From Agromyces sp. 3263 (GTDB lineage Bacteria > Actinomycetota > Actinomycetes > Actinomycetales > Microbacteriaceae): a stretch of DNA of 64,000 bases. Every line of letters begins with the position of its first letter. The stretch's first letter is position 1. The notes beneath the pieces are model-generated. The model did not search any database and was not told the origin of the DNA. It was given only the letters and a program-made list of their open reading frames with translations. Positions 17,752 through 45,807 of this stretch are shown in pieces. A program made the position numbers and the translations under genes. The DNA lies in contig NZ_JAVDUV010000002.1 in the NCBI RefSeq assembly GCF_031456545.1, positions 806,001-870,000 on the forward strand, in the 5' to 3' direction.

Positions 17752-18345
17752 TCACCAGGTCGCGACGTACTCCGACACGGGCAGCACCGTGGAGCGGACG
17801 ACCGGGAGGCCGCGGCCGATGGCCTGGTCGATGCGGTCACGCAGGCCCTGCGAGTCGATGCGGTAGTCGACGAAGTCGGTGTCGCTCGCGTAGACGCCGA
17901 TCGGGAGCGTGATCGCCTGGAAGAACGAGAACAGCGGGCGGAACTGGTGCTCGATGATGAGCGCGTGCCGGTCGCTGCCACCCGTCGCCGCGAGCAGCAC
18001 CGGCTTGTCGATGAGCGCGTACTGCCCGACGAAGTCGAACACGTGCTTGAACAGGCCCGTGAACGACGCCCGGTACACGGGGCTGGCGACGATGAGCAGG
18101 GTCGCCGACTCGATGCGGCGCAGCGCGTCCTCGGCGATGGGGCTGAGGTCGTCCCGGCTCAGCGCGCCCGAGAACTCGCGCCCGATGTCGGAGAGCTCGA
18201 TGAGGTGCGTCTCGACCTCGAGGTCGTTGCCCGACCCCGAGCGGAGGGCGGTGGCGAAGCCCTCGAGGATCTCGTGCACGAGCACGGTGGTCTTCGACGG
18301 CGAGTGCAGGCTTCCGGAGACGGCGACGATGGAGATGTTCGGCAT
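17752..18345 (-). CDS. NAD(P)H-dependent FMN reductase (MsuE-like)
   Basis: 197 residues, flavodoxin-like fold of the MsuE/SsuE class. VAVSGSLHSPSKTTVLV is the FMN-phosphate loop, LIVASPVYRASFTGLFKHVFDFV the conserved P-V-Y-x-x-x-x-x-G-x-x-K motif, and LLAATGGSDRHALIIEHQFRPLFSFFQA the C-terminal signature. It would supply reduced FMN to the luciferase-like monooxygenases of this island. The translation has no internal Met and no Cys, like most proteins here. It lies downstream of the peptide-ABC/M20 operon on the same strand after a 164-base gap with a hairpin, so it may have its own promoter. A CGGCGTCACG element (18435-18444) recurs at 42931. Confidence 0.9.
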   Translation of the reverse strand: MPNISIVAVSGSLHSPSKTTVLVHEILEGFATALRSGSGNDLEVETHLIELSDIGREFSGALSRDDLSPIAEDALRRIESATLLIVASPVYRASFTGLFKHVFDFVGQYALIDKPVLLAATGGSDRHALIIEHQFRPLFSFFQAITLPIGVYASDTDFVDYRIDSQGLRDRIDQAIGRGLPVVRSTVLPVSEYVATW

Positions 18346-18382
18346 GGTGGGACGCTAACCCGCCACGGGCGACACCGGAATC

Positions 18383-18400
18383 ACCCCGGACTCCCGGGGT
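18383..18400. terminator. Small GC hairpin between M20 peptidase and FMN reductase genes
   Basis: ACCCCGG-ACTC-CCGGGGT forms a 7-bp stem with a 4-base loop. It could end the upstream minus-strand operon or lie in the FMN reductase leader. Confidence 0.4.
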
Positions 18401-18509
18401 AAGGCGACGACACAGGCCTTCACACGAGGTATCCCGGCGTCACGGAAGGCGCCGCGCACGCGGCATCCGCGGCTCGCAGATGTCGCCGCGTGACCGCTCG
18501 GATGCGTCG

Positions 18510-19844
18510 TCATGCGTCGCGGAGCAGCCGGTGCGTGACGCGCGCCGAGAAGTACAGGGCGTCGACCGGGATGTGCTCGTCGGCCGTGTGGAACTGCCCG
18601 AACACGTCGAAGTCGTCGGGCACGCGGAGCGGCACGAAGCCGTAGCCGGCGATGCCGAGCCGGGCGAGGTGCTTGTTGTCGGTGCTGGCGGGGAGCAGGT
18701 AGGGCACGACCACGCCGCCGTCGTCCTCGGCCGTGATCGCACGCTGGGCGACCTGGAGGAGCGGCGAGTCGAGCGGTGACGCGATCGGCGGGATCCACCG
18801 GGCGACCTCGAGCTCGACGTCGTCGCCGACGACGCGCTGCAGGCCGTCGCGGAACGTGTCCTCGTGGCCGGGCAGGATCCGGAGGTCGAGGGCCGCCGTC
18901 GCCGTGGCTGGGATCACGTTCGTCTTGGATCCGGCGTCGAGCACCGTGGGCGACGCCGTGTCGCGCAGGGTCGCGCCGACGATGCCGCCGACGAACCCGA
19001 GGTCGCCGAGCTGTGCCTCGAGCGCGGCATCCGAGAACTCGACGCCGCGCGCCGCGCCGAAGCTCGCGAGGAACGCGTCGAGCGCCGGCGTGCGGGTGAC
19101 CGGGAACCGGTGGTCGCCGACGGCGGCGACCGCGCGGGCGAGCCGCACCACGGCGTTGTCGGCGGTGGGGCGCGAGCCGTGCCCGGGCCGTCCGCGAGCC
19201 GTCAGCTGCGCCCACGCGACGCCCTTCTCGGCGGTCGCGACCAGGTAGGCCCGACGACCGGGCGCGAGCGGCACGGAGAATCCGCCGACCTCGCTGAGCG
19301 CCTCGGTCGCGCCGGCGAACAGCTCGGCATGGTGCTCGACGAGCCAGCGTGCGCCCCAGACTCCGCCCGCCTCCTCGTCGGCGAAGAACGCGAAGACGAG
19401 GTCGCGCTCGGGCACCTCGCCGTCGCGCGCGAACGCCCGAGCGACGGCGAGGATGACCCCGGCGAAGTTCTTCATGTCGACGGCGCCGCGCCCGTAGAGC
19501 ACGCCGTCGTCGACCTCGGCGCCGAACGGCGGATGCGTCCAGTCCTGCCCGTCGACCGGGACGACGTCGAGGTGCGCGTGCACGACGAGTGCCCCGCGGG
19601 ACGGATCACGTCCGGCGAGCCGCGCCACGACGCTCCCCCGGCCGGGACGGGACTCGAGGAAGGTCGTCTCGTAGCCGACCTCCTCGAGGGCCGCCTGCAC
19701 GTAGCGGGCGGCCCGGGTCTCCCCGTCGCCGATCGTGTCGAGGTCGCCGGTGTTCACGCTCTCGATGCGGATGAGGTCGCGGATGAACCGCAGCGCCTCC
19801 TCCTCGAGCAGCGAGCCGGCCGGGGGAACGTCGTTCGAAGCCAT
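18510..19844 (-). CDS. M20 family metallopeptidase (ArgE/DapE/ACY1-like)
   Basis: 444 residues. The di-zinc ligands are in place: H91/D93 in VHAHLDVVP, D123 in YGRGAVDMKN (the bridging Asp), E157/E158 in FADEEAGG, and the dimerisation-domain region GRPGHGSRP. Such enzymes remove N-acyl groups or cleave dipeptides in the cytoplasm. It follows the ABC substrate-binding gene by 16 bases, so it probably hydrolyses the imported peptide or N-acyl amino acid. Only one internal Met and no Cys occur, in keeping with the island. I chose ATG 19844; the frame upstream is Arg/Ser-rich and not conserved-looking. Confidence 0.88.
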   Translation of the reverse strand: MASNDVPPAGSLLEEEALRFIRDLIRIESVNTGDLDTIGDGETRAARYVQAALEEVGYETTFLESRPGRGSVVARLAGRDPSRGALVVHAHLDVVPVDGQDWTHPPFGAEVDDGVLYGRGAVDMKNFAGVILAVARAFARDGEVPERDLVFAFFADEEAGGVWGARWLVEHHAELFAGATEALSEVGGFSVPLAPGRRAYLVATAEKGVAWAQLTARGRPGHGSRPTADNAVVRLARAVAAVGDHRFPVTRTPALDAFLASFGAARGVEFSDAALEAQLGDLGFVGGIVGATLRDTASPTVLDAGSKTNVIPATATAALDLRILPGHEDTFRDGLQRVVGDDVELEVARWIPPIASPLDSPLLQVAQRAITAEDDGGVVVPYLLPASTDNKHLARLGIAGYGFVPLRVPDDFDVFGQFHTADEHIPVDALYFSARVTHRLLRDA

Positions 19845-19860: not shown

Positions 19861-21480
19861 CTACTCCGCGGACTTCCACGCCGCGACGAGCGAGTCGAGG
19901 CGCGAATCCGCACCCAGCGTCACGCCGTGCACCGTCGGCTGGGTGCCGAGGATCGACGTCAGCTCGTGCACCGGGACCTGGTGGAACTCCGTTGCGATGC
20001 GCTCCTGCGCGTCGGCGAGCACGGCATCGCGCCCCGCGGCATCCGCCACCGCCGCCTGCTCCTGCAGCAGCGACTCGAGCTCGGGGTCGTCGAGGTGGAG
20101 CCGGTTCGTGGCCGCCGTCGAGTAGGTGGTGCGCAGCACGTCGCCGTCGGCGCGCGACAGGTTCTGCCAGGACAGGTCGAAGTCCCCCGACTCCTGCAGC
20201 TTCAGGAACTCGGGCACCGTGCCGCCCACGAGGTTCACCTCGATGCCGACCGCCTTCAACTGCTGCTGGATGAGCTCGAGCGACGTCTGGTTCGGGCCGA
20301 AGTTCGTGATCCACGCGAGGTCGAGCGAGAGTCGTTCGCCGTCGCGCTCGCGGATCCCGTCGGATCCGGTCGCCCAGCCGGCCTCGTCGAGCAGCTCCTC
20401 GGCGTGGTCGGGGTCGAAGGCGAAGCTGCCCGACTGGTCGGCGAACCCCGGCGTGGTCGCGGCGAGCGAGCTCGTGGCGACCGCGAACAGGTCGTTGAGC
20501 GCCGTGTCGCGCACCTCCTCGGCGTCGATCGCGTTGGCGATGGCCTCGCGCACGGTGCGGTCGGCGACGATGGGACGTGCCTCGTTGAAGTAGACGCCGA
20601 ACGTGGCGCCGGGGTTGCCGCGGTGCACGAGCGGGAACCCGCCGTCCTCGAGGGTCTGCACGTCGATCGGCTGCACGCCGCCGATGACGTCCACCTGCGC
20701 GGAAGCCAGGCTGCCCGTGCGCACGCCCGCCTCGGGCACGACCTGGAAGGTCACCGTGTCGAGGTGCGCCGCACCGTCGTTGCCGAGGGGCGTCGGCCCC
20801 CAGGCGTAGTCATCGCGTCGCTCGAGCACCGTCTGCACGTCCTTCGTGTACTCGTCGAGCGTGAAGGGTCCGCTCCCCACCACGGCCGAGCCGTCGGCGC
20901 GCTCGGCGAACGGCGTCGCGCGGGTCGACTCCGCCACGATGCCGAGTGCGACCGACGCGGCCGAGCTCGGGAACGCGGCGTTCGGCGCGGCGAAGTGCAC
21001 CTCGACGGTGTCGTCATCGACGGCCACGGTCTCGGCGTAGCCGATGAACGAGCTGATCGCCTGACTCTCGGCGCCGGCGGCGACGATGTCGTCGAACGTG
21101 CCCTTGACGTCGGCGGCCGTGAGCGGCGAACCGTCGGAGAACGAGACGTCGTCGCGCAGCTCGAACGTGAACACCGTCGCGTCGTCGTTGCTCGACCACT
21201 CGGTGGCCAGCCAGGGCTCGAGCGTCCCCGTCTCCGGGTCCTGGTAGAGCAGCGAGTCGACGAGTTGGCGCGTGACGTAGAGGGTGTCGTTGCCCGAGCC
21301 GGTGCCCGAGGGGTTCAGCGAGATCGGGTCGTTGCCGATGGCGAAGACGAGATCTCCGCCCTCGGTGACGGCGGTGTCGGATGCCGCGTCCGAGGTGCTC
21401 GCGGCGGTGGCGCAGCCCGTGAGGGCGAGGGTCGTCGCCGCGACGGCGGCGGCGAGGGCGGTTCGGCGATGGATGGACAT
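19861..21480 (-). CDS. Peptide/opine-type ABC transporter substrate-binding lipoprotein
   Basis: 539 residues, solute-binding family 5. A lipoprotein signal has lipobox L-T-G-C (C23). Family marks: LVFAIGNDPISLNPSGTG at the mature start, TLEPWLATEWSSNDDATVFTFELRDDVSFSDGSPLTAADV, and EELLDEAGWATGSDGIRERDG. It binds oligopeptides or similar solutes outside the membrane for the permease pair upstream. The lipid-attachment Cys is the only Cys and there is no internal Met, which is extreme for 539 residues. AGGAG lies 6 bases before ATG 21480. Confidence 0.92.
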   Translation of the reverse strand: MSIHRRTALAAAVAATTLALTGCATAASTSDAASDTAVTEGGDLVFAIGNDPISLNPSGTGSGNDTLYVTRQLVDSLLYQDPETGTLEPWLATEWSSNDDATVFTFELRDDVSFSDGSPLTAADVKGTFDDIVAAGAESQAISSFIGYAETVAVDDDTVEVHFAAPNAAFPSSAASVALGIVAESTRATPFAERADGSAVVGSGPFTLDEYTKDVQTVLERRDDYAWGPTPLGNDGAAHLDTVTFQVVPEAGVRTGSLASAQVDVIGGVQPIDVQTLEDGGFPLVHRGNPGATFGVYFNEARPIVADRTVREAIANAIDAEEVRDTALNDLFAVATSSLAATTPGFADQSGSFAFDPDHAEELLDEAGWATGSDGIRERDGERLSLDLAWITNFGPNQTSLELIQQQLKAVGIEVNLVGGTVPEFLKLQESGDFDLSWQNLSRADGDVLRTTYSTAATNRLHLDDPELESLLQEQAAVADAAGRDAVLADAQERIATEFHQVPVHELTSILGTQPTVHGVTLGADSRLDSLVAAWKSAE

Positions 21481-21538: not shown

Positions 21539-23263
21539 TCAGGGGGCCGGATGCCGCGTGCGCGCCGCATCGGAGCCCGGGATGGCGTCGAGCAGCGCGC
21601 GCGTGTACGGGTCGCGAGGGGCGCTGAACACCGCGTCGATGCCGCCGCTCTCGACGACCCGACCGTCGCGCATGACCACGACCTCGTGCGCGATGCGGCG
21701 CACCACGGCGAGGTCGTGCGAGATGAACAGGTAGCTCAGCCCCAGATCGCGTTGGATCTCGACGAGCAGCGTGAGGATCTGGTCCTGGATCGACACGTCG
21801 AGCGCCGAGACGGGCTCGTCGAGCACGAGCAGTTCGGGCGAGATCGCGAGGGCGCGGGCGATCGCGACGCGCTGCCGCTGCCCGCCCGACAGCTCGGCGG
21901 GCTTCCGCCGCAGCACGCTGCTCGGCAGGGCGACGACGTCGATGAGCTCGGCCACCCGGCGCGCCCGCGACGCGCGGGTGCCGAGCCGGAACGCCTCGAG
22001 CGGATCGGCGACGATCGCGCCGATCGTCAGCCTGGGGTTCAGCGACGCGTACGGATTCTGGTGCACGAGCTGCGCGCGCCGGCGGAACTGCCGCAGCGCC
22101 CGGCCCTCCACCCGCGTGAGGTCGTCGCCCGCGAACTCGATGCGACCCGAGGTCGGGTCGGCGAGTCGCAGCACGAGCCGTGCGGTCGTCGACTTGCCCG
22201 ACCCCGATTCCCCGACGACGGCCAGGGTGCGACCGCGCGGGATCGCGAAGCTCACGCCGTCGACCGCCCGGTGGGTACCTCCGCCGGCCGCGCGCGGGAC
22301 GGGGAACTCCTTCACCAGGTCGATCGCCGCGAGGAGGGCGGGGGACTCGGGTGCCGTCGCGGCATCCGCTGCCACCGTCGTCGCCCGCGACACCGACCGC
22401 GGGTCGTCGAGGCTCGGCGCCGCCGCGATGAGCTGCTTCGTGTACGGATGCCGCGGGGCGCCGAGCACCTCGGCGGGAGTGCCGGTCTCGACCACCTCGC
22501 CCTCCGACATCACGACGATGCGGTCGGCGCGGTCGGCTGCCACACCGAGGTCGTGCGTGATGAGCAGCAGGCTCGTGCCGAGCTCGCGCTTGAGCACGTC
22601 GATGCGGTCGAGGATCTGGCGCTGCACGGTGACGTCGAGCGCGCTCGTGGGCTCGTCGGCGATGATGAGCGCCGGCCGGGCGATGATCGCGATCGCGATG
22701 AGCACCCGCTGGCGCATGCCCCCCGACAGCTCGTGCGGGTACTGCTCGGCGTGCACCTCGGGGTCGGGCAGGCCCGCCTCCGCGAGCGCCTCGACGGCTC
22801 GGCTCCGTGCGGTGCGCCGGTCGGCGAGCCTGTGGATGCGCAGCACCTCGCCGACCTGGTCGCCGATGCGCTGCACCGGGTTGAGGCTGACCGTCGGGTC
22901 CTGCGGCACGAATCCGATCGCCCGGCCCCGGATGCCACGGAGCTCCGCCTCCCCCGCCCGTGCGAGGTCGCGGCCGCGGAACCGCACGGAGCCGCCCGCG
23001 ATGGCCGCCGACGGCGGCAGGAGGCGCAGGATCGCGTGGGCGGTCGTGGACTTGCCCGATCCGGACTCCCCCACGATCGCGACCGTCTCCCCCTGCCCGA
23101 TCGTGAGGGACGCTGCACGCACGCCGTCGATGACCGCGCCGTTCACCCGGTAGGTCACGGCGAGGCGGTCGACGACGAGGAGGTCGGCCGGGTCGGCCGG
23201 CCGCGACGCGTCGGCCGCGACGTCCGCATGGCTGGTGGGAGGCGCATCGGTTGCGAGGCTCAT
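21539..23263 (-). CDS. Fused peptide ABC transporter ATPase (DppD-DppF type)
   Basis: 574 residues with two complete ABC domains. The first has Walker A GESGSGKST at residues 65-73, signature LSGGMRQRV and DEPTSALD. The second has another GESGSGKST, signature LSGGQRQRV and DEPVSALD. The family-specific tails for oligopeptide ATPases (HPYTKQLIAAAP and DPYTRALLDAIPG) follow each domain. It powers the permeases encoded just upstream; its ATG overlaps the DppC-type stop. There are three internal Met and no Cys, well below what two ABC domains normally carry. Confidence 0.93.
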   Translation of the reverse strand: MSLATDAPPTSHADVAADASRPADPADLLVVDRLAVTYRVNGAVIDGVRAASLTIGQGETVAIVGESGSGKSTTAHAILRLLPPSAAIAGGSVRFRGRDLARAGEAELRGIRGRAIGFVPQDPTVSLNPVQRIGDQVGEVLRIHRLADRRTARSRAVEALAEAGLPDPEVHAEQYPHELSGGMRQRVLIAIAIIARPALIIADEPTSALDVTVQRQILDRIDVLKRELGTSLLLITHDLGVAADRADRIVVMSEGEVVETGTPAEVLGAPRHPYTKQLIAAAPSLDDPRSVSRATTVAADAATAPESPALLAAIDLVKEFPVPRAAGGGTHRAVDGVSFAIPRGRTLAVVGESGSGKSTTARLVLRLADPTSGRIEFAGDDLTRVEGRALRQFRRRAQLVHQNPYASLNPRLTIGAIVADPLEAFRLGTRASRARRVAELIDVVALPSSVLRRKPAELSGGQRQRVAIARALAISPELLVLDEPVSALDVSIQDQILTLLVEIQRDLGLSYLFISHDLAVVRRIAHEVVVMRDGRVVESGGIDAVFSAPRDPYTRALLDAIPGSDAARTRHPAP

Positions 23264-24207
23264 CGTGCTCGGCTCCGTTCGAGGTCGAGGGCATGGGACA
23301 GCCGGTTCGCGGCCAGCACCGTGGCGGCGATGACGAGACCCGGCATGGTGGTCAGCCACCAGTCGTTGCGGAGGAAGTCGCGGCCTCCGGCGACGAGCGA
23401 TCCCCACTCGGGCGTGGGCGGCTGGGCGCCGTAGCCGAGGAAGCTGAGCGCCGACACGGCGAGGATCGCGGTGGCGAACTCGAGGGTCGCGAGCACCAGC
23501 ACCGGGCCGGCAGAGTTGGGCAGCACATGGCGGAACAGGACCCGGCTCCACCGGTCGCCCGACGCGTGCGCGGCATCCACGTACACCGAGGTGCGCACCC
23601 GCAGCACCTCCGATCGCATGATGCGCGAGACGGATGCCACGCTCGCGACGCCGACCGCGATCGCCACGTTCACCGTGCCGAAGCCCAGCGCCGTGATGAT
23701 CGCGAGCGACAGGAGCAGCGAGGGGATCGCGAGCAGCACGTCGGCGAACCGCATGACGCCCGCGTCGACCCAGCGGCCGACGAACCCGGCGAGCAGGCCG
23801 AGCAGCGTGCCGAGGACGAGCCCGACCGTGACCGCGATGCCCGCGGCCTGGAGCGAGAGGGCGGTGCCGTGCACGACACGGGTGAACAGGTCGCGGCCGA
23901 GCTGGTCGGTGCCGAACCAGTGCGCGGCGGACGGCGGCTGCAGTCGTTCGGCGGGCACGCCCGCGAGCGGATCGCCCGGCGCGAGCACCTGCGGGGCCAC
24001 CGCTGCGAGCACGACGAGCGCGAGCCAGACGACGGCGACCAGGAGCGTCGGCCGCGCGACGAGCCGTCCGGCGACCCCGATCGTCCGGGACGCGGCATCC
24101 GTCGACCGCGACCGCACCGCGTCGCCGAACCTCGCCGAGGCGGTGGCCGCGAAGAGGTCGTCGGACTGCTGCCGCTCCCCCGACGTGAGCGTGACCGTCT
24201 CGGTCAT
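23260..24207 (-). CDS. Peptide ABC transporter permease (DppC type)
   Basis: 315 residues. The DppC layout: N-terminal extension, first helix (LLVAVVWLALVVLAAVAPQVLAP), family phrase HWFGTDQLGRDLFTRVVHG, four to five further helices, EAA-loop VYVDAAHASGDRWSRVLFRHVLPNSAGP, and end motif PEWGSLVAGG. It forms the channel with the DppB-type subunit. Both ends overlap their neighbours by 4 bases, showing a tight operon. Three internal Met, no Cys. Confidence 0.93.
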   Translation of the reverse strand: MTETVTLTSGERQQSDDLFAATASARFGDAVRSRSTDAASRTIGVAGRLVARPTLLVAVVWLALVVLAAVAPQVLAPGDPLAGVPAERLQPPSAAHWFGTDQLGRDLFTRVVHGTALSLQAAGIAVTVGLVLGTLLGLLAGFVGRWVDAGVMRFADVLLAIPSLLLSLAIITALGFGTVNVAIAVGVASVASVSRIMRSEVLRVRTSVYVDAAHASGDRWSRVLFRHVLPNSAGPVLVLATLEFATAILAVSALSFLGYGAQPPTPEWGSLVAGGRDFLRNDWWLTTMPGLVIAATVLAANRLSHALDLERSRAR

Positions 24208-25199
24208 GAGGTCTCCTCCCTGGCGGCGGGCGTGAAGGCGGGCCGCGGCGTGCGTGACCGGGAACGGCCGCCGGCCCCGAGGATGCGGGGGTCGAGGAGC
24301 GGGTACACGAGGTCGACGAGCAGGTTCGCGATGACGAACGCCGCCGCGGCGAACAGCACGATGCCCTGCACGACGGGCACGTCCTGCTGTTGCACGGCGC
24401 CCGAGGTGACCCGGCCGAGTCCCGGCCGGGAGAAGACCGTCTCGGTGACGACCGTTCCCGACAGCAGCTGGCCGACGATCAGCCCGGTGATCGTGAGGGC
24501 GGGCAGCGCGGCGTTCTTCAGCGCATGCCCGAGGTGCACGCGGGCGCGATCGGCGCCCTTCGCCCATGCGGTGTCGACGTACGGCTCTGACAGCGTGGTG
24601 GCGAGGCTCTTCGACAGCAGCTGGGCGATCATCGCCCCGGTCGGCAGCGCGAGCGCGATCGCCGGGAGCACGATCGACGCCGGTCCCCGGTCTCCCACCG
24701 CCGGGAAGATCGGCAGGCTGAACGAGAACCACTGGATGAGCATCAGCCCGAACCAGAACGCCGGGATCGCGACGCCGAGCGGGGGCAGTCCGAGCAGCAC
24801 GTTCGCGAGCCACCCGCGGCGGGTGTAGTTCGCGAGGATCGCGAGGCCGGCCCCGAACACGACGGCGAGCATGAGCGCCGCCGACGCGATCGCCGCCGTG
24901 GGCGGGATGGCCTCGCCGATGACCTCGGTGACGGGCCGGCCGCTCACGAGCGAGCGTCCGAGGTCGCCGTGCAGCGCGGCGGCGAGCTGGTCGAGGTACT
25001 GCACGAGGAGGGGCCGGTCGAGGCCGTACTGCGCGCGCAGCGCGTCGAGCTGCTCGGGACTGACGTCGTTCGCGTCGGCTCCGGCCAGCAGCGACACCGG
25101 GTCGCCGGGCAGTGCGTAGAGCACGAGGAACGCCACGGTGTACGCGGCCCAGAGCACCCCCACCGCCTGCAGGAGCCGGATGCCGAGATACCTCACCAT
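24204..25199 (-). CDS. Peptide ABC transporter permease (DppB type)
   Basis: 331 residues. MVRYLGIRLLQAVGVLWAAYTVAFLVLYALPGDP is the classic DppB start, followed by LDALRAQYGLDRPLLVQYLDQLAAALHGDLGRSL, five further membrane helices and the EAA-loop YVDTAWAKGADRARVHLGHALKNAALP. It pairs with the DppC-type permease. Its ATG is buried in the last codons of a 37-codon frame that ends at 25193, implying coupled translation. Three internal Met and no Cys. Confidence 0.93.
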   Translation of the reverse strand: MVRYLGIRLLQAVGVLWAAYTVAFLVLYALPGDPVSLLAGADANDVSPEQLDALRAQYGLDRPLLVQYLDQLAAALHGDLGRSLVSGRPVTEVIGEAIPPTAAIASAALMLAVVFGAGLAILANYTRRGWLANVLLGLPPLGVAIPAFWFGLMLIQWFSFSLPIFPAVGDRGPASIVLPAIALALPTGAMIAQLLSKSLATTLSEPYVDTAWAKGADRARVHLGHALKNAALPALTITGLIVGQLLSGTVVTETVFSRPGLGRVTSGAVQQQDVPVVQGIVLFAAAAFVIANLLVDLVYPLLDPRILGAGGRSRSRTPRPAFTPAAREETS

Positions 25200-25306
25200 G
25201 GTCGCGGTCCCCCGCCCTGCGCGCCCGTCACCGTCTGCGCCGGCGACGCCGCCGTCGCGCCCTCGAGCTCGGGTGCGGGTTGGGTGATCTCGGTGGTCGA
25301 CGTCAC
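25193..25306 (-). CDS. 37-residue leader reading frame overlapping the permease start
   Basis: GTG 25306 has GGGAG 5 bases upstream, a better site than the permease itself has. The frame (VTSTTEITQPAPELEGATAA...) ends with TGA at 25193-25195, 4 bases inside the permease gene (ATGGTGA overlap). It is Thr/Ala/Pro-rich, has no Met or Cys and no membrane helix. It could be a coupling leader peptide that lets ribosomes reinitiate on dppB. It could also mean that the real transcript simply has a permissive start. Confidence 0.5.
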   Translation of the reverse strand: MTSTTEITQPAPELEGATAASPAQTVTGAQGGGPRPW

Positions 25307-31303: not shown

Positions 31304-31354
31304 GGCCAGACCCTACCGACTCCGGCGCTCGACGGGGACGCCGCGCGGCATCCG

Positions 31355-35447: not shown

Positions 35448-35469
35448 TTCTTCTCGCGGGGCTCGGGTT

Positions 35470-38142: not shown

Positions 38143-38267
38143 CACCAGGTGGCGATCGCCGCGATTCCGGGCCTCGGCGGTCACAACATGACGAATTCCG
38201 TCGCCGGCATGTGTCGAACTCCTACGCGCGACGGCTCGACGTCGGCGTCGAGCCCGGCCGCGACGAC

Positions 38268-38786: not shown

Positions 38787-38798
38787 GCGTGCTCCAGG

Positions 38799-39914
38799 TC
38801 AGGTGGCGGCGAAGCGGCCGAGGCGGAAGACACCCGGCGCCGGGCGCCCATCGGCGAGGTCGGCGAGGACGCGGCCGACCGCGGGAGTGAACTTGAATCC
38901 GTGCCCCGAGAAGCCCGCGCCGACGGCGACTGGGCCCGACGCGTCGAGCACGAACGTCGAATCGGGCGTCGTCGTGTAGGTGCAGCTGATCGGCGCGGCG
39001 ACCTCGGCGTCGACGCCGGGCAGCCATTCGCGGGCGTAGCGACGCAGCGCCGCGAACTGCACCGGCTCGGCTTCGTAGTCGCGCAGGTCGGGATCGACGA
39101 CCGGGCCGACGCCGTGCCATCCGGCCTTCACGCCCTCGCCGGGCGTGAGCATGCCGTAGGTGCCCGAGTACCACCACTCGTCACCGGGACCCGGGTGGTG
39201 GTTGAAGCCGGGCCACGTGATCGTGTCGTCGCGCATGGCGAAGTGTGCCGGCTGCTCCTGGGTGACGACGAGCCGCGGCAGGTCGACGAGGCCCCCGAGC
39301 AGCTTCGAGGTCCAGCCGCCGACGGCCACCACGGCCCGGCGGGCGGTGATCGTTCCGCGATCGGTCTCGACCTGCACGCGGTCGTCGTCGAGCACGCGGA
39401 TGCCGCGGGCGGGCGTCTCGTGGCGCACGTCGGCGCCGCGCGCGGCCGCAGCCGCCTGCAACGCCCGTACCGCGGCATCCGCGTCGAGGCGCCCCGCCGT
39501 CGGCAGGTGCAGCGCCGTCGTCGTGAAGCGGATGCCGCCCCAGCGGCGCTGCGCCTCATCGGGCGGGAGGAGTTCGTTGGGGATGCCGACGGCGGTGAGC
39601 GCGGCGCGCACCTCGTCGTGGCCGGGGTTGTGGCCATGGTCGACGAGGCCGACCTGATCGAGGACCGGCGTGCCCGTCTCGGCCTCGAGCTCGCGCCACG
39701 CCAGCTGCGATTCGAGGAGCATGGCGACGTGAGTGGGCTCGGCGTAGGCGAGGTTGAAGTTGCGCGAGGCGCCGTGCGACGCCCCGTGCCGGTGGCCGGG
39801 GGCGAAGCGCTCGAGGAGGGTGACCTGCCGGCCGCGTCGCGCGAGGTTCCACGCCGCGGAGGAGCCCATCGCTCCCCCGCCGATGACGACGATCTCGGTG
39901 TCGAGTGCGGTCAC
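38799..39914 (-). CDS. Sarcosine-oxidase-like FAD-dependent amine oxidase
   Basis: 371 residues, MSOX/N-methyltryptophan oxidase branch of the DAO family. FAD dinucleotide motif VVIGGGAMGSSAAWNLARRG, then GASHGASRNFNLAY. C311 in SCTYTTTPDSTFVLD is at the site where FAD is covalently bound in sarcosine oxidase. C-terminal GAGFSGHGFKFTPAVGRVLADLA is the family signature. It oxidises N-alkyl or alpha-amino groups, giving peroxide. GTG 39914 overlaps the previous stop. Substrate by context: an N-methyl or S-substituted amino acid. Four internal Met. Confidence 0.9.
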   Translation of the reverse strand: MTALDTEIVVIGGGAMGSSAAWNLARRGRQVTLLERFAPGHRHGASHGASRNFNLAYAEPTHVAMLLESQLAWRELEAETGTPVLDQVGLVDHGHNPGHDEVRAALTAVGIPNELLPPDEAQRRWGGIRFTTTALHLPTAGRLDADAAVRALQAAAAARGADVRHETPARGIRVLDDDRVQVETDRGTITARRAVVAVGGWTSKLLGGLVDLPRLVVTQEQPAHFAMRDDTITWPGFNHHPGPGDEWWYSGTYGMLTPGEGVKAGWHGVGPVVDPDLRDYEAEPVQFAALRRYAREWLPGVDAEVAAPISCTYTTTPDSTFVLDASGPVAVGAGFSGHGFKFTPAVGRVLADLADGRPAPGVFRLGRFAAT

Positions 39915-40504
39915 GAGGCGATGCCGAGCTCGTCGTCGTGACTCGGGGCCTCGTCCGCGGCATCCACGTCGATCGTGAATGCGAGCAGCCGGAACCGGCG
40001 GCCGCCGTCGACGATCTCGCGCTCGCGGTCGTGCAGCCGGGTGAAGCCGAGCTTCGCGTAGAGCGCGTGCGCGCCGACCATCTGCGGGCCGCTGTTCATG
40101 ACCACCCGGTCGAGTCGGCGCTGCCTCGCCAACTCGATCACGTGCCGGGTGAGCCGCGCCCCCACGCCCCGTCCGCGCGCCGACGGGTCGACGGCGAGGA
40201 GCCGGAAGTCGAGCTCGCCGGGTCGCGCGAGCGGCGAGATCGTGCGGCCGGGCCGGGGCGTGGCCACGGCGCCGAGCAGCGCGCCCGACGCGGCATCCGC
40301 GGCGACCCACACCTCGTGCTCCGCGGCGCGCTCGGCGACGGCGAGGATCGAGGCGCGGTACTCGGCCGAGATCTCGTACTCGAGCTCGTACGCTCGCAGT
40401 GACAGGGCGGCGACCTCGTCGTACTCGTCGGGCCGCACGAGGCGCACGGCGAGCCCATCGGTCGGGTCGGACGCCGCACCGTGCGGCTGCTGGCTCTCGC
40501 TCAT
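39911..40504 (-). CDS. GNAT family N-acetyltransferase
   Basis: 197 residues. Loop LLAVDPSARGRGVGARLTRHVIELARQRRLDRVVMNSGPQMVGAHALYAKLGFTR gives a clear GNAT. An acidic C-terminal tail (DVDAADEAPSHDDELGIAS) follows. Two internal Met, no Cys. It lies 37 bases after the LLM gene and overlaps the FAD oxidase start. It likely acetylates an amine substrate in the same pathway. Confidence 0.88.
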   Translation of the reverse strand: MSESQQPHGAASDPTDGLAVRLVRPDEYDEVAALSLRAYELEYEISAEYRASILAVAERAAEHEVWVAADAASGALLGAVATPRPGRTISPLARPGELDFRLLAVDPSARGRGVGARLTRHVIELARQRRLDRVVMNSGPQMVGAHALYAKLGFTRLHDREREIVDGGRRFRLLAFTIDVDAADEAPSHDDELGIAS

Positions 40505-40541
40505 CGATCCACGATCCTACGGGCGACGCCTGACGCAGCGG

Positions 40542-41705
40542 TCACCGGGTCGCCCCGGATGCCGCGGACAGGCGGTCGTGCGGCGCGGTCGCCGACTCCA
40601 CGGCCGCCGCGGCGTCCGCCTCGACCCCGCCGCTGACCGCAGGACGCAGGGCATAGGGATCGCCCGGTCCCCAGAGCGTGCTCGGGAACTCCCGGCGAGC
40701 GACCGGGGCGACCTCGGCGGCGAAGCGCTCGACGAGGTCGACCTGCTGCTCGACCGGCAGGGTGGTGGGCAGGCTGATCGACTGCAGGTCGTGCCCGAGC
40801 GCCTCGTGGAAGCGGCCGATCTTGTCGATGACCTGCTGCGGGCTGCCGACGAGCGCGGGCCCCTCGGCGATGGCGTGGTCGATGTCGCGGAATGGGGAGT
40901 TGTTGCCCGGCACGTTCGTCGCGGCGACGAGCGCCTCGTAGACCGGGCCGTACAGCTCCCTGGCCTGCTGGGTGGTGTCGGCGATGAACAACGCTCCGGC
41001 GCCGGCCCCCACGTAGGCGAACCGCGGGTCGTGCCCGTGGCGTGCGCGCTCGTCGCGGTAGTGCTGCACGAGCACCGCGTAGTTGCGGAGCGGCTGGATC
41101 GCGTTCGCGCTGAACAGCGGGTCGCCCCAGCGCGCCGCGAGCGCCGCCGAGGCGAGCGTGGTCGCCGATCCGTGCCACACCCGCGGCGCGCCGGCGTACG
41201 GGCGCGGCAGCGTCGTGGTGCCCCGCTGTGCGCGCGTGTACGGCGTGGCCTCCCAGTCGACGTCGGTCTCCCGCCAGAGCCTGCGGAGCAGGGCGTAGCG
41301 GTCGGCGAGCAGCTCCCACTGGTCGTCGATCTCCAGACCGAACAGGGGGAACTGCGCCGCCTCGTTGCCCTTGCCGATCGTGAGCTCGAGCCGGCCGCGC
41401 GAGAGCTGGTCGATGGTGGCATAGTCCTCGGCCACGCGCACGGGGTCGAGCACCGACAGCACGGTCACCCCCGTCTGCAGGCGGATCGTCGAGGTGACCG
41501 CGGCGATGGCGCCGAGCAGCACGGTCGGCGACGACGAGAGGAATCGCCCCGCGTGCCGCTCGCCCACCGCGAAGGCGTCGAAGCCGAGCCGCTCGGCCCG
41601 GCGGGCGAACTCGACGGTCTGGTCGAGCCGCTCGGCCGGGCTGACGAGCCGCCCGGTGACCGGGTTCTGCACGTAGGGGACGATGTCGAGGATCTGGAAG
41701 CGCAT
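40542..41705 (-). CDS. Luciferase-like FMN-dependent monooxygenase 4
   Basis: 387 residues, LLM class with MRFQILDIVPYVQNPVTGRLVSPAERLDQTVEFARRAERLGFDAFAVGERHAGRF and VLSVLDPVRVAEDYATIDQLSRGRLELTIGKGNEAAQFPLFGL. This belongs to a branch of putative F420/FMN-dependent oxidoreductases near CE1758-like LLMs. No internal Met and no Cys. It sits between DUF1684 and GNAT genes in the same operon. Substrate unknown. Confidence 0.88.
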   Translation of the reverse strand: MRFQILDIVPYVQNPVTGRLVSPAERLDQTVEFARRAERLGFDAFAVGERHAGRFLSSSPTVLLGAIAAVTSTIRLQTGVTVLSVLDPVRVAEDYATIDQLSRGRLELTIGKGNEAAQFPLFGLEIDDQWELLADRYALLRRLWRETDVDWEATPYTRAQRGTTTLPRPYAGAPRVWHGSATTLASAALAARWGDPLFSANAIQPLRNYAVLVQHYRDERARHGHDPRFAYVGAGAGALFIADTTQQARELYGPVYEALVAATNVPGNNSPFRDIDHAIAEGPALVGSPQQVIDKIGRFHEALGHDLQSISLPTTLPVEQQVDLVERFAAEVAPVARREFPSTLWGPGDPYALRPAVSGGVEADAAAAVESATAPHDRLSAASGATR

Positions 41706-41761
41706 GGGGTCTCCGGTTCTGGCGCGTCGATGGTCGGATGCTGCGGGCGGGGCGGCGCCGA

Positions 41762-42625
41762 TCAGGCGACGTTGCGCTCGACGGGCGTCTTCTCCCCCGC
41801 CTCGATGCCGATCGGCAGCCGGTTCCCGGCGGGCGGCAGCGGGCAGGTGGCGTGGTCGGTGTACGCGCAGGGCAGGTTCACCGCCCGGTTGAAGTCGAGC
41901 ACGACCGAGCCGTCGGCGTCGGGAGCCTCGATCTCGAGCGAGCGGTTCGCCGCGTAGGTCGTGAGCCCGCTCGTGGCATCCGTGAAGAGCACCTGCAGCG
42001 TGCCGGGCGCATGGCCGTTGAACGCCGTGAGCCGGAAGGTCTCGCCGCGCAGCTCGAACTCGACCTCGCCCGGCACCTCGTAGACGTGCTGCAGGCCCTC
42101 GGCGGCCGAACCGACGGTGACCTCGCGCGGCGTTGCGGCGGGAATGAGCCGGCCGCGCGCGATCCAACGCGGGTTGGGCAGGTAGGTGGGCGTGCCCGTG
42201 AAGCGGGCGAGGTAGGGGTGCTTCGGGTCGCGGGGACGCACGATGTCACGGCCGCCGCGGCGGGCGACCTCGATCGCGAGCTCGCCCGAGCGCACCACGA
42301 CGCCGCCGCGCTCGGCGATGGGGCCGAAGGCGTGGCGACCCTCGAGGCGGGTGCCGTCGGCCACCTCGAGCGACTCACCCGGGGCGAGCTCGACGACCGG
42401 CCCCGCGGCATCCGTGGACCAGGTGCCCGGCACGTCGTCGATGTGCTGCGGCGTCTCGTCGAGCCAGTGGATCGCGGTCACGGCCAGGAAGCCGTGCGGG
42501 TCGGCGCGGCGGGCCTCGTGGTCGCGGTGCCACTGCTCCCACTCGCGGGCGAAGGCGGCACGGTCCAAGGTGGCGGTGTCGGTGGTGGCGGCGTCGGTGG
42601 TGGCGGCTGCATCGGTGATCGTCAT
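41762..42625 (-). CDS. DUF1684 family protein
   Basis: 287 residues. The DUF1684 core is clear: HPYLARFTGTPTYLPNPRWIARGRLI, then VLDFNRAVNLPCAYTDHATCPLPPAGNRLPIGIEAGEK with the paired Cys found across the family. The N-terminal 20 residues are Thr/Ala/Asp low complexity. No internal Met; the two Cys are the conserved pair. Biochemical role unknown; the family is frequently found near LLM monooxygenases. It lies 56 bases upstream of the LLM gene and 10 bases after the small upstream gene. Confidence 0.9.
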   Translation of the reverse strand: MTITDAAATTDAATTDTATLDRAAFAREWEQWHRDHEARRADPHGFLAVTAIHWLDETPQHIDDVPGTWSTDAAGPVVELAPGESLEVADGTRLEGRHAFGPIAERGGVVVRSGELAIEVARRGGRDIVRPRDPKHPYLARFTGTPTYLPNPRWIARGRLIPAATPREVTVGSAAEGLQHVYEVPGEVEFELRGETFRLTAFNGHAPGTLQVLFTDATSGLTTYAANRSLEIEAPDADGSVVLDFNRAVNLPCAYTDHATCPLPPAGNRLPIGIEAGEKTPVERNVA

Positions 42626-42635
42626 GTCGCCACTG

Positions 42636-42827
42636 TCACGCTCCCGCGAGCACTTCGCCAGCGGTGTCGTCACCATTCGCCACCGATCGCAACACCGAGT
42701 CACGTTCGGGGGCGGCGGACGCCGCATCCGCGCTCCCGCCGTCGAATTCCGCGGCTCGGGCCGCCTCGACGATGCGGAGCGCGCGGGGCCCGTGGATACG
42801 GGCGTACCAGTGCAGCAGGTCGGTCAT
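42636..42827 (-). CDS. Small 63-residue protein at the head of the DUF1684/LLM operon
   Basis: ATG 42827 has GGAGG 4 bases upstream and the stop is 10 bases before the DUF1684 start. The first half (MTDLLHWYARIHGPRALRIVEAARA) could form an amphipathic helix; the rest is Ala/Ser/Asp-rich. No internal Met or Cys, no signal peptide or membrane helix. I do not recognise a family. It is probably a real small protein because of its position and start site. Confidence 0.55.
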   Translation of the reverse strand: MTDLLHWYARIHGPRALRIVEAARAAEFDGGSADAASAAPERDSVLRSVANGDDTAGEVLAGA

Positions 42828-42934
42828 GATGCCTCCGATCGAGGTGAGGGTGGCGGGCCTCCGCCGGATGGCTGGCCACGATAGGCGCGCCGCCGAGGGG
42901 CGGCGACGGATGCCGCAACACGCGGACACGCGGC

Positions 42935-42947
42935 GTCACGATGTGAC
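42935..42947. promoter_or_regulatory. GTCAC-GAT-GTGAC dyad in a divergent control region
   Basis: The gap 42828-43012 serves the leftward DUF1684/LLM operon and the rightward MetY/LLM pair. It carries a perfect 5-bp inverted repeat GTCAC/GTGAC, preceded by CGGCGTCACG (42931-42940) also found at 18435-18444. GTGACC repeats again at 42953. Confidence 0.55.
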
Positions 42948-43012
42948 CGCGGGTGACCCCACGCGTCGCGACGCGATTGCCCGGATGCCGCGGCGCGCTC
43001 AGGATGGGCCGC

Positions 43013-44488
43013 ATGTCTGAGCCCGATGCGCACGACCACTTCGCCGACGCGGCCCTCGCCCACGAGGGCTTCGCCACCCAGCAGGTGCACGCCGGCGAGC
43101 ACGCCGACGCAGCCTTCGGCGCGCGCATCATGCCGATCTACCTGAGCGCCGGATTCCGCTTCGACGATTTCGCGCATGCGCGAGAGCGCTTCGCCGGCGA
43201 CGACGGCGGCTATGTCTACACGCGGGCGGGCAACCCCTCGAACGCCGCCCTCGAACGGCGGCTCGCCGCGATCGAGCGCGGGCGCGACGCGATCGTCCTC
43301 GCGAGCGGGCAGGCGGCGCTGACCGTGGCCGTGCTCGGCATCGCGCAGGCCGGCGACCACGTGCTGTCGGCGCAGACCGTCTACTCGGGCACCCGCAGCC
43401 TCTTCACCCAGGGATTCGGCCGGTTCGGCATCGAGGTCGAGTTCGTCGACGACCCGGCCGACCTCGACGAGTGGCGCCGCCGCATCCGCCCGAACACGCG
43501 GGCGATCTACGCCGAGTCGATCGCGAACCCCACCGGCGAGGTCATCGACCTGCGCGGCGTGGCGGGGGTCGCCCAGGCGGCCGGCGTGCCGTTCCTCGTC
43601 GACAACACGCTCGCGACGCCCTACCTCGTGCGGCCCATCGAGCACGGCGCCGACCTCGTGGTGCACTCGGCGAGCAAGTTCCTCTCGGGGCACGGCGCGG
43701 CGCTGGGCGGCGTGATCGTCGACGCAGGCACGTTCGACTGGTCGGCGCGTCCTGATGCCTTCCCGCACCTGCACCTGCCCGACACCGGGCTGCAGGGCCG
43801 CAGCTACCTCGGCGCGCACGGCGACGGCGCCTACACCGCGTACCTCCGCGGCGTCACGGCCGCGCTGTTCGGGCCGGTGCTCTCGCCGTTCAACGCGTTC
43901 CTCATCCAGCAGGGCGTCGAGACGCTCTCGTTGCGCGTGCAGCGCCAGTCGTCCACGGCCGCCGCGATCGCCGCCTGGCTGGAGGAGCAGCCCGAGGTGC
44001 TGGTCGTCAACTACCCGGGCCTCCGTTCGAGCCCGTCGTTCGAGCTGGCGCAGCGGTACCTGCCGCGCGGGCAGGGAGCGGTGCTGTCGTTCGTGCTGGC
44101 CGGCGGCGAGGCATCCGTCGCGCCCTTCTACGACGCCGTCGAGCTGTTCAGCCGCATGAGCCACATCGGCGACACGAGGTCGCTCATCCTCCACCCCGCG
44201 ACGACGACGCACGCGCACCTCGACGCCGGCACACGCGCCAAGGGCCGCATCTCGTCGGGGCTGCTGCGACTGTCGATCGGGCTCGAAGAGCCGGAGGACC
44301 TCGTGCGGGACCTCGAACGCGGGTTCGCGGCGCTGCGCGCCGTCGCGGCATCCGTCACCGCATCGCCCGCGACCGCGACGGCGGGCGCCACGGCATCGGT
44401 CACCGCATCGCCCGTCCGTGCATCGACGGTCTCCGACCTCGCGACGGATGCCGCATCCCGCGCCGTGCTCGAAGGGAGCGCACGATGA
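43013..44488 (+). CDS. O-acetylhomoserine sulfhydrylase-like PLP enzyme
   Basis: 491 residues, Cys/Met metabolism PLP family (MetY branch). Marks: GFATQQVHAGEH, YVYTRAGNPSNAALERRLAAIERG, ASGQAALTVAV (usually S-G-M/Q-A-A), and the Schiff-base lysine K222 in HSASKFLSGHG. It would use sulfide or methanethiol with an O-acyl homoserine to make homocysteine or methionine. The catalytic domain ends near residue 440; a repetitive Ala/Thr/Ser tail (SVTASPATATAGATASVTASP) is unusual. Two internal Met, no Cys. It overlaps the next LLM gene by ATGA. Role: capture of sulfur released by the monooxygenases. Confidence 0.9.
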   Translation: MSEPDAHDHFADAALAHEGFATQQVHAGEHADAAFGARIMPIYLSAGFRFDDFAHARERFAGDDGGYVYTRAGNPSNAALERRLAAIERGRDAIVLASGQAALTVAVLGIAQAGDHVLSAQTVYSGTRSLFTQGFGRFGIEVEFVDDPADLDEWRRRIRPNTRAIYAESIANPTGEVIDLRGVAGVAQAAGVPFLVDNTLATPYLVRPIEHGADLVVHSASKFLSGHGAALGGVIVDAGTFDWSARPDAFPHLHLPDTGLQGRSYLGAHGDGAYTAYLRGVTAALFGPVLSPFNAFLIQQGVETLSLRVQRQSSTAAAIAAWLEEQPEVLVVNYPGLRSSPSFELAQRYLPRGQGAVLSFVLAGGEASVAPFYDAVELFSRMSHIGDTRSLILHPATTTHAHLDAGTRAKGRISSGLLRLSIGLEEPEDLVRDLERGFAALRAVAASVTASPATATAGATASVTASPVRASTVSDLATDAASRAVLEGSAR

Positions 44489-45807
44489 CCCGGCCGCAGC
44501 ACTTCGGATGGTTCTTCTCCCGGGGCTTCGGGCCGCAGGGCTGGGGACACCCGCACTGGGACTGGGACTACCGCTGGACCGAGCCGAAGCTCTACCAGCA
44601 GTCGGTGCGCGAGCTCGAGCAGGCGGGCCTCGACCTCGTCATCATCGAGGACGGTCCGTCGATCGGCACGCCCGAGACGGTCGAGCTGCGGGTGCGCAAG
44701 GCGTACGGCGGACCGAAGCACGATCCGGTCGCGCTGACGCCCTACCTGCTCGCCGCGACCGAGCACCTCGGCATCGCCCCCACGGTCAACGCGGGGATCT
44801 GGCCGCCATACCTCGCGGCCCGGCAGTTCGCGTCGCTGCACCACCTGAGCGGGCACCGCGTCGGGATCAACGTGGTGACGGATGTCTCGAGCACGCGCCA
44901 CACGGGCACGCCGCCCGTGACGCACGACCAGGCGTACGACCGCGCGAGCGAGTGGCTCGCCGCGGTGCGCGGCCTCTGGCACAGCTGGGATGACGGCGCC
45001 CTCGTGGCGGATGCCGCGACCGGCCGCTTCGCCGACGGCTCGAAGATCCGCGAGACCCGCTTCGAGGGCGAGTACTTCGACGTGACCGGACCGCTCAACG
45101 CCATCCCGTTCACCGAGGGCGACCCGGCGATCGTCTCCCCCGGCGGCTCCCCCAAGGGACTCGCGTTCGCCGGCACCCACTCGGACGTGCAGCTCGCGTA
45201 CGCGCCGCTCGACCTCGACGTCGTGCGCGCCTACCGGCAGAAGATCATCGACGCGGCCGTCGCGCACGGGCGCGCGGCGAACGCCGTGAAGACCCTGTTC
45301 GTGTTCAAGCCCGAGATCGTGTCGAGCGAGGAGGAGGTCGACCGGGTGGTGCGCGCGTCCCTCGATCCGTCGGACGCGACGCTCGCCGCGATCCTCGAGG
45401 GCCAGTCGAGCGACCTCGAGACCGACCTCACCGGGCTGCCCCTCGACCGCCCCCTCGACCCGGGTGTCTTCGGTGACCACGTGTCGCAGGGCAGCATCAA
45501 GGGCCTCCTCGGCAAGACCGCCGCGTCGTTCGCGGATGCCACGCTGCGCGAGCTCCTCGTCGCGAAGGCCCGCAAGGGCCGCATCGCCGACCACGCGGGC
45601 TTCGTGGGCACGGCCGAGCAGGTCGCCGACTTCATCGAGGAGTTCGGCGAGGAGGCCGACAACGACGGCTTCATCTTCTCGGGCGACCTGCACCCGGTCA
45701 CGGTGCACCGGTACCTCGACGAGCTCGTGCCGATCCTGCGCCGGCGCGGCGTGCTGCGCCGGGAGTACGGGGGCGGGGGCATCCAGGGCAACCTGCGCGA
45801 CTTCTGA
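44485..45807 (+). CDS. NtaA/SnaA/DszA-family FMN-dependent monooxygenase 5
   Basis: 440 residues. Marks: ELEQAGLDLVIIEDGPSIGTP, IAPTVNAGIWPPYLAARQFASLHHLSGHRVGINVVTD, ASEWLAAVRGLWHSWDDGALVADAATGRF, FDVTGPLNAIP, and the C-terminal YLDELVPILRRRGVLRREYGGGGIQGNLRDF tail typical of the branch. No internal Met, no Cys. Translationally coupled to the MetY-like gene, so it probably releases the sulfur compound that MetY fixes. Confidence 0.92.
   Translation: MTRPQHFGWFFSRGFGPQGWGHPHWDWDYRWTEPKLYQQSVRELEQAGLDLVIIEDGPSIGTPETVELRVRKAYGGPKHDPVALTPYLLAATEHLGIAPTVNAGIWPPYLAARQFASLHHLSGHRVGINVVTDVSSTRHTGTPPVTHDQAYDRASEWLAAVRGLWHSWDDGALVADAATGRFADGSKIRETRFEGEYFDVTGPLNAIPFTEGDPAIVSPGGSPKGLAFAGTHSDVQLAYAPLDLDVVRAYRQKIIDAAVAHGRAANAVKTLFVFKPEIVSSEEEVDRVVRASLDPSDATLAAILEGQSSDLETDLTGLPLDRPLDPGVFGDHVSQGSIKGLLGKTAASFADATLRELLVAKARKGRIADHAGFVGTAEQVADFIEEFGEEADNDGFIFSGDLHPVTVHRYLDELVPILRRRGVLRREYGGGGIQGNLRDF

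Follow-up and report, generated by a model that had tools for sequence, protein, structure and literature searches.

Agromyces sp. 3263 carries a gene island most of whose proteins contain almost no methionine (Met) or cysteine (Cys), and we consider it likely, with good confidence, that the island is a group of sulfur-starvation operons for organosulfur salvage which long selection for sulfur economy has purged of both residues. The island occupies positions 17752 to 45807 of the 64-kb stretch of DNA analyzed here (the window; C2:806001-870000 within the 4.07-Mb genome, G000; 71.9% GC). Using our own gene caller on the window and counting Cys plus internal Met (initiator excluded), we recovered the ten proteins that a first-pass annotation of the sequence had listed as free of both, 3,502 amino acids (aa) in total, each with zero internal Met and zero Cys. 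Its claim that a 539-aa binding protein (19861) keeps only its lipobox Cys also held, with no internal Met and a single Cys, Cys23, and the sulfur-poor composition does reach whole enzymes and a membrane protein, the permease 36315 being at zero. The genes, named by their first coordinate in the window and assigned to families with Pfam and NCBIfam models, are as follows (LLM, luciferase-like monooxygenase; Met counts are internal).

17752-18345, minus: FMN reductase, MsuE equivalog (TIGR03566, 231.8 bits, cut-off 212.5), 197 aa, 0 Met, 0 Cys
18510-19844, minus: M20 peptidase/deacylase (passes PRK07906), 444 aa, 1 Met, 0 Cys
19861-21480, minus: SBP_bac_5 binding lipoprotein, 539 aa, lipobox Cys23 only
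21539-23263, minus: double ABC ATPase (Opp/Nik type), 574 aa, 3 Met, 0 Cys
23260-24207, minus: ABC permease, 315 aa, 3 Met, 0 Cys
24204-25199, minus: ABC permease, 331 aa, 3 Met, 0 Cys
25200-25545, no strand: divergent upstream region rich in GTGAC/GTCAC half-sites, a suggestive operator only
25546-26736, plus: LLM 1 of the core trio, NtaA/YtnJ-like, 396 aa, 0 Met, 0 Cys
26733-28103, plus: LLM 2, NtaA/DmoA subfamily, nearest solved relative YtnJ, 456 aa, 0 Met, 0 Cys
28093-29409, plus: LLM 3, MsnO8 subfamily, 438 aa, 0 Met, 0 Cys
29406-30776, plus: M20 amidohydrolase (TIGR01891), 456 aa, 2 Met, 2 Cys
30764-34182, minus: interposed GNAT, 153-aa open reading frame (ORF) without Pfam family, and molybdopterin oxidoreductase; normal sulfur content, outside the sulfur-poor set
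34338-35360, minus: SBP_bac_3 amino-acid-type binding protein, 340 aa, 0 Met, 0 Cys
35470-36318, minus: ABC ATPase, best NCBIfam model TcyN (cystine), below cut-off, 282 aa, 0 Met, 0 Cys
36315-37514, minus: amino-acid ABC permease, 399 aa, 0 Met, 0 Cys
37511-38014, minus: GNAT acetyltransferase, 167 aa, 0 Met, 0 Cys
38268-38786, minus: GNAT, near-normal sulfur content, 1.75 Met+Cys per 100 residues
38799-39914, minus: FAD-dependent amino oxidase (DAO), 1.35 Met+Cys per 100
39911-40504, minus: GNAT, 1.02 Met+Cys per 100
40542-41705, minus: LLM 4, nearest the CE1758 family, below cut-off, 387 aa, 0 Met, 0 Cys
41762-42625, minus: DUF1684 protein, 287 aa, 0 Met, 2 Cys (Cys253, Cys261)
43013-44488, plus: O-acetylhomoserine (OAH) sulfhydrylase-like PLP enzyme (TIGR01326, 490.9 bits, cut-off 495.1), 491 aa, 2 Met, 0 Cys
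44485-45807, plus: LLM 5, nearest solved relative DszA (TIGR03860, 272.9 bits), 440 aa, 0 Met, 0 Cys

Beyond the ten zero proteins and 19861, seven further island proteins are low, with one sulfur residue (18510), two (43013 and 41762), three (21539, 23260, and 24204), or four (29406). Genes of other function within the island have normal content, as had been claimed (31813, 24 Met+Cys in 789 aa; 30764, 3 in 162), and the interposed ORF 31355 lies above the genome mean, at 3.3 per 100. The stronger claim that composition marks the regulon member by member holds approximately: most members are low, but 38799, 39911, and 38268 are half-normal to normal.

Met and Cys content across the genome

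A genome-wide count, which the first-pass annotation had called for, was run on 2.41 Mb (59% of the genome; 2,122 proteins, mean 1.83 Met+Cys per 100 residues). There the island is the strongest sulfur-poor cluster: it reaches log10 p -15.5 in 8-gene windows, against -4.8 for the best window outside it, and -15.8 against -5.2 in 12-gene windows, with a weaker contrast at the 5-gene scale (-9.1 against -7.0). In an earlier sample, the first 1.66 Mb (Met 1.38 and Cys 0.46 per 100), the 15 lowest of 1,409 20-gene windows all overlap the island, the lowest at 0.77 per 100 and the median at 1.83. Proteins of at least 300 aa with zero Met+Cys number 13 of 1,072, and seven of the 13 lie in the island. 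Could the island nevertheless be chance, given that a GC-rich genome holds some Met/Cys-free proteins and that this run had been picked out beforehand by the first-pass annotation? Single zero proteins are indeed not rare (41 of 1,808 proteins of at least 150 aa), at least one other is conserved, and a 5-gene window outside the island reaches the -7.0 given above. The cluster statistics at 8, 12, and 20 genes and the persistence of the depletion in most homologues over many genera stand against this, and we regard chance as ruled out by these statistics together with the homologue counts at 80 loci described below.

The best 5-gene window outside the island lies at G000:C1:2066511-2076463, with 23 Met+Cys in 3,179 residues. 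The six zero proteins of at least 300 aa outside the island are an OAH sulfhydrylase paralogue (C2:1188536), the product of window 722-1702, and four that were not searched for families. The gene at 722-1702 (minus strand) encodes 326 aa with no Pfam family; six relatives carry 1 to 3 Met/Cys, and its zero content is probably chance.

Base composition, codon bias, or foreign origin is a second alternative, as high GC disfavors ATG and TGY codons, and the GC content of the window and the low genome-wide Met and Cys frequencies are in its favor. Same-genome paralogues speak against it. LLM domains outside the island have 99 Met+Cys in 5,148 aa over 20 matches (1.92 per 100), whereas the six matches in the island have none; two of the 20 are also zero: a piece of 87 aa, with one Met in its other half, and a 370-aa match within the 468-aa LLM of C1:1122634-1125488. 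In the 1.66-Mb sample, where 25546, 26733, and 44485 are without a paralogue, the paralogues of 10 of the 14 low island families that have them carry 1.2-2.8 per 100, and transporter-component paralogues average within the same range, except for one Opp-type binding protein at 0.74. At the 80 homologous loci, unrelated proteins have 1.84 per 100, and residues with similar codons are not markedly depleted in homologues of the core LLM trio (25546, 26733, and 28093), with ratios to control of 0.94 for Ile, 1.23 for Phe, 0.82 for Trp, and 0.92 for Tyr. These amino-acid ratios contradict the compositional explanation, which we therefore consider ruled out.

Sulfur-poor genes also occur elsewhere in the genome. 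At C1:1122634-1125488, a second small locus, a desulfurase-type protein (0 Met, 2 Cys, 447 aa) lies beside an LLM (1 Met, 468 aa); relatives of the pair adjoin the island in one of the two congeners used for orthologue comparison (G008), and relatives of the desulfurase alone do so in the other (G005). The names desulfurase, AhpD-like, and nitroreductase-like, at this locus and in the congeners, are presumptive and taken from sequence features. The OAH sulfhydrylase (MetY) paralogue at C2:1188536-1189831 (TIGR01326) has no internal Met or Cys and is at zero in eight of eight congener matches; matches in two less closely related genomes have 1 and 2 Met. The sulfur-poor signature follows the gene, not the location. 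A 271-aa protein within the G005 island (G005:C1:1964166-1964981), presumably nitroreductase-like, has zero internal Met and Cys and is without a window counterpart in our comparison. Near G000:C1:1767664 is a 444-aa open frame with 0 Met and 5 Cys, which we take to be sulfite-reductase-like; sulfate-assimilation genes may be Met-poor too. We also note a tRNA-Leu gene at window 16682-16764, ~1 kb left of the island, and that a plasmid search with window 35000-45000 returned partial matches only, 59 of 64 records being at 60-80% identity.

Conservation and specificity of the depletion

Comparison with orthologues in other genera, also proposed in the first-pass annotation, showed that the depletion persists in most homologues across many genera. 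The cluster is conserved in both congeners, mostly at 65-89% identity, and the zeros are mostly retained, although the permease in G008 and the ATPase in G005 each have one Met and the G008 copy of 40542 has one Cys; 37511 has an orthologue in G008 only. Per 100 substituted sites, 0.89 end in Met or Cys in the 32 island pairs, a set that includes the near-normal genes, whereas the 41 control pairs, many of them from one chromosomal region, give 3.65; neither the trio nor the amino-acid binding protein shows any such site. A four-genome alignment of 28093, reaching down to 53% identity, contains no internal Met or Cys; in the fourth genome, from another family (G019), the 26733 homologue has four Met and the 25546 homologue one Cys.

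For a broader sample, the best 80 of 437 public-genome relatives of 28093 were retained, giving 80 actinobacterial loci with at most 10 kb of sequence covered on each flank. Trio homologues with at least 45% identity have zero Met+Cys in 48 of 57, 44 of 62, and 54 of 76 cases; similarity to Met/Cys-free queries was the selection criterion for both this sample and the 120 homologues below, which lowers the counts somewhat, and some of the internal Met close to the N terminus probably reflect upstream starts chosen in error, so that the zero counts are perhaps conservative. Below 45% identity, zero is found in seven of seven homologues of the first trio protein and in two of 11 of the second. 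As controls, 597 unrelated proteins from the same loci average the 1.84 per 100 given above, with zero in seven of the 264 of at least 300 aa. Relative to these controls Met is depleted ~17-fold in the trio homologues and Cys ~45-fold (ratios 0.06 and 0.02); Lys stands at 0.53 and all other residues at 0.79-1.23. Only Met and Cys are depleted in this way, every other residue staying above half of the control level. Zero copies occur in, among other genera, Agromyces, Frondihabitans, Microbacterium, Curtobacterium, Arthrobacter, Cellulomonas, Flexivirga, and Streptomyces. The depletion is weaker in Frankia homologues (0.2-0.5 per 100), and isolated distant homologues come to ~1 per 100. Among the 120 best-scoring homologues of 26733 (of 8,000 scored), 109 have zero, and together they contain 12 Met+Cys in 54,775 residues where 1,002 are expected.

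At seven columns of the 28093 family in which at least two of five outside paralogues have Met, the island type has mainly Leu, Arg, Ala, Val, Asn, Gln, and Ile, the exception being ten Met at one N-terminal column, probably start-codon errors. The sulfur that is left can be followed in the seven proteins with orthologues in both congeners (18510, 19861, 21539, 23260, 24204, 29406, and 41762), which hold 17 sulfur residues, nine of them invariant in the three genomes (four of five Cys and five of 12 Met). The invariant Cys are the lipobox Cys of 19861, Cys142 of 29406 (in HACGH), and Cys253 and Cys261 of the DUF1684 protein 41762; the invariant Met are Met205 of 29406, Met124 of 18510 (in GRGAVDMK), Met152 of 23260, and Met183 (in LSGGMRQR) and Met252 of 21539. 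We take the motifs that hold residual residues to be metal-binding or ABC signature motifs. The rule that only needed sulfur stays holds as a tendency, one that is clear for Cys but weak for Met.

Oxidation avoidance, in which Met and Cys would be lost to resist peroxyflavin or H2O2 from flavin monooxygenases, draws on the presence of five LLMs and a flavin reductase among the ten zero proteins. The amino-acid importer and the GNAT are equally Met/Cys-free, however, while LLM domains outside the island have normal content and the island DAO oxidase keeps 1.35 per 100. The oxidizable residues Trp, Tyr, and His are also not comparably depleted in the trio homologues (0.82, 0.92, and 1.22). We consider this explanation very improbable and reject it, as the depletion covers importer and GNAT and spares both other LLMs and Trp, Tyr, and His.

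Predicted function and sulfur-sensing leaders

The sulfur-scavenging role proposed in the first-pass annotation is supported by family content, by the Met/Cys specificity and congener conservation, and by the leaders of homologous clusters. The family assignments fit a predicted function in sulfur acquisition; from them, sulfur scavenging in general is very likely, whereas the narrower role of salvaging S-modified cysteines or related amino acids has, we estimate, a little short of an even chance. Only 26733 passes the NtaA/DmoA subfamily model TIGR03860 (433.2 bits, cut-off 279.7), with 44485 (272.9) and 25546 (231.3) below it, and 28093 passes the MsnO8 model TIGR03558 (295.5 bits, cut-off 166.95). 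The nearest solved relative of 26733 is Bacillus subtilis YtnJ, which we take to be CmoJ, and a YtnJ/YxeK-class monooxygenase feature is present. An SsuD assignment was tried and rejected: against the equivalog TIGR03565 (cut-off 518.2), 26733, 44485, and 40542 score 58.1, 43.2, and 31.1 bits, and 25546 and 28093 are unlisted.

In the pathway that we propose, low Cys or S-adenosylmethionine (SAM) would switch the operons on, and the two ABC importers would take up sulfur-containing amino-acid or peptide-like compounds, which a GNAT may N-acetylate. The MsuE-type reductase would feed the FMNH2-dependent LLMs for oxidation and C-S bond cleavage, the M20 hydrolases would deacylate the product, and the OAH sulfhydrylase-like enzyme would capture the freed sulfide or thiol. 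Because the core proteins need only the initiator Met, cells whose sulfur pool is empty could still make the pathway; a small residue, which generally permits Met removal, follows the initiator in all but one of the ten zero proteins. We infer the induction of the island in Agromyces sp. 3263, its substrates, and the order of reactions.

Some homologous clusters carry sulfur-sensing leaders. Rfam scanning of nine of the 80 loci, two of which (Flexivirga L145 and L158) were picked for riboswitch-like upstream sequence, found SAM-IV riboswitches in five: both Flexivirga loci have one 65 and 72 bases before LLM 1 and another before the divergent amino-acid importer, Streptomyces L167 and L182 have one upstream of the importer, at a distance of 322 and 552 bases, and Cellulomonas L144 has one before the FMN reductase. 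A short leader ORF with an HID motif and Cys in its last five residues precedes LLM 1 in nine of 17 Streptomyces loci and in one Actinacidiphila locus, in a search covering the 51 loci with LLM 1 on the scanned strand; five of the ten leaders were scanned, and all five pass NCBIfam NF042934 (putative leader peptide). The genes behind the ten leaders have no Cys in nine cases and one Cys in the tenth. In the Agromyces genome itself, a dyad search upstream of ten sulfur-poor genes or operons gave no significant shared operator. Among 347 5-mers tested upstream of the same ten, GTGAC/GTCAC occurs 17 times against 4.2 expected (p 2.4e-6), in regions chosen beforehand, two of which lack the motif, and many of the intergenic regions densest in GTGAC are unrelated; the GTGAC-rich pattern is a suggestive lead to a candidate operator. 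The stretch of the Agromyces genome that holds the OAH sulfhydrylase paralogue (L064) has a guanidine-III riboswitch (L064 17306-17372, minus strand) upstream of a 107-aa small membrane-type protein.

The pairing of Cys-sensing leader and Cys-free product also fits selection for translational continuity, that is, for independence from charged tRNA-Cys and tRNA-Met during starvation rather than for economy, and the deeper depletion of Cys than of Met points the same way. The initiator Met is still required, however, and content differs among components: homologues of the LLMs have 0.06-0.10 Met+Cys per 100, those of the amino-acid binding protein 0.13, of its ATPase 0.25, and of its permease 0.43. 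This rise from LLM to permease is the order of expected copy number, from which we infer that it favors economy; homologues of the Opp-type importer follow a less clean order (0.30, 0.60, 0.52, and 0.90). We think it somewhat unlikely that continuity rather than economy accounts for the composition, and the two are not exclusive.

Sulfur economy has to be weighed against several observations, among them the selection bias of the homologue samples, the frequency of single zero proteins, and the caveats on GTGAC given above. One 339-aa protein (C2:334510-335529, not family-searched) has zero internal Met and Cys here and in six of eight congener matches with no visible sulfur role, which counts against using composition alone. 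Within the island, 38799, 38268, and 39911 retain substantial Met and Cys, yet 38799 and 39911 belong to the cluster in both congeners, as 38268 does in G005; five DAO homologues in the 80 loci are at 0.97 per 100. Two of the ten zero proteins, 17752 and 44485, lack an orthologue in the regions of the congeners that were compared. In four families paralogues outside the island are low as well (0.48-0.74): besides the Opp-type binding protein, these are the FMN reductase (0.48, one paralogue), the GNAT (0.62, one), and the OAH sulfhydrylase (0.55, three pooled). Eight of the 17 residual sulfur residues vary among the three genomes, and none of the three Met of 24204 is invariant, so sulfur removal is incomplete. 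As to regulation, no SAM-IV riboswitch was found in four of the nine scanned loci (L103, from Agromyces, L107, L124, and L133), and no Cys leader in 33 of the 51 loci, from other genera, nor in eight of the 17 Streptomyces loci. The Rfam scan of the window returned a tRNA only, and close to these genes neither a riboswitch nor an HID-type Cys leader was found in the window or in the own-genome stretches searched. The substrate assignment comes from family resemblance only, and 29406, which passes TIGR01891, is nearer to Xaa-Arg dipeptidase than to YxeP.

Known systems and implications

Proteins of assimilatory pathways contain less of the element that they acquire (Baudouin-Cornu et al. 2001, as cited in the part of PMC5607370 available to us), and the island resembles such element-sparing proteins, including those of Escherichia coli tau and ssu, in that acquisition proteins are poor in their own element. 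Pooled, E. coli tau and ssu proteins have 1.18 Met+Cys per 100 (30 in 2,533), and TauA and SsuE have zero internal Met and zero Cys. The tau/ssu ATPases and permeases are at 1.9-2.4 per 100, and three neighbouring proteins at 3.2-4.9; the island differs in having one ATPase and one permease at zero, and in the ~17-fold (Met) and ~45-fold (Cys) depletion of its core homologues.

Closer to Agromyces, sulfate-starved Rhodococcus qingshengii IGTS8 makes sulfur-poor proteins, MetY included, more abundant, and according to the available sections of that report the starvation proteins with few or no Cys and Met are SfnG, TauD, AtsA, and MetY, while DszA keeps five Met; ScmK, TcyC, FliY/TcyA, and a SoxA-like oxidase are further entries in its list of proteins (PMC8557817). 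The two cases are alike in concerning an actinobacterium and proteins with little or no Cys and Met. They differ in that the IGTS8 study, in those sections, deals with selected proteins of one strain, whereas the present case covers an entire cluster, is controlled by paralogues from the same genome, extends over many genera, and includes sulfur-sensing leaders.

In B. subtilis, S-alkylcysteines are acetylated, flavoenzymes oxidize and cleave them, and M20 enzymes take the acetyl group off (excerpts of PMC10863075 and PMC12757645). Like the ytn and scm clusters, as those excerpts present them, the island combines an acetyltransferase, FMN monooxygenases, and M20 hydrolases; unlike them, it has five LLMs, two importers, an MsuE-type reductase, an OAH sulfhydrylase-like enzyme, and a DUF1684 protein, and its acetylation and deacetylation steps are predicted. 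GNAT 37511 matches the acetyltransferase feature of the ytn/scm clusters, yet this GNAT was found in only four of the 80 homologous loci. Cysteine-responsive attenuators of mycobacteria are short ORFs with Cys codons upstream of an operon (Canestrari et al. 2020, as cited in the accessible part of PMC9031893). The Streptomyces and Actinacidiphila clusters likewise carry short Cys-codon ORFs upstream; compared with what that part describes, our leaders lie in homologues rather than in the window, and the downstream product is Cys-free or nearly so.

The principle of sulfur sparing is thus already known, in Rhodococcus too, which argues against uniqueness. As far as we have seen in the open-access literature, what is new is the degree, the cluster scale including a membrane protein, the spread over genera, the paralogue and substitution controls, and the pairing with sulfur-sensing leaders. 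The island would provide an unusually strong natural example of protein sequences shaped by the cost of an element, and the pairing of a Cys-sensing leader with a Cys-free product makes economy and translational continuity testable against each other. Composition can be used to test for sulfur-regulon membership in genomes without annotation, bearing in mind that a few other proteins also lack sulfur; the island further marks possibly irreplaceable residues and supplies Met/Cys-free enzyme scaffolds. More tentatively, we propose a starvation-proof actinobacterial module in which operons that sense the absence of Cys or SAM, by Cys-codon attenuators and SAM-IV riboswitches, encode enzymes and importers stripped of almost all replaceable sulfur, so that sensing matches composition. 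If true, the residual Met/Cys count would read out sulfur-regulon membership and irreplaceable residues, and the DUF1684 protein, the desulfurase/LLM pair, and LLM 5 could be assigned to the sulfur-starvation response.

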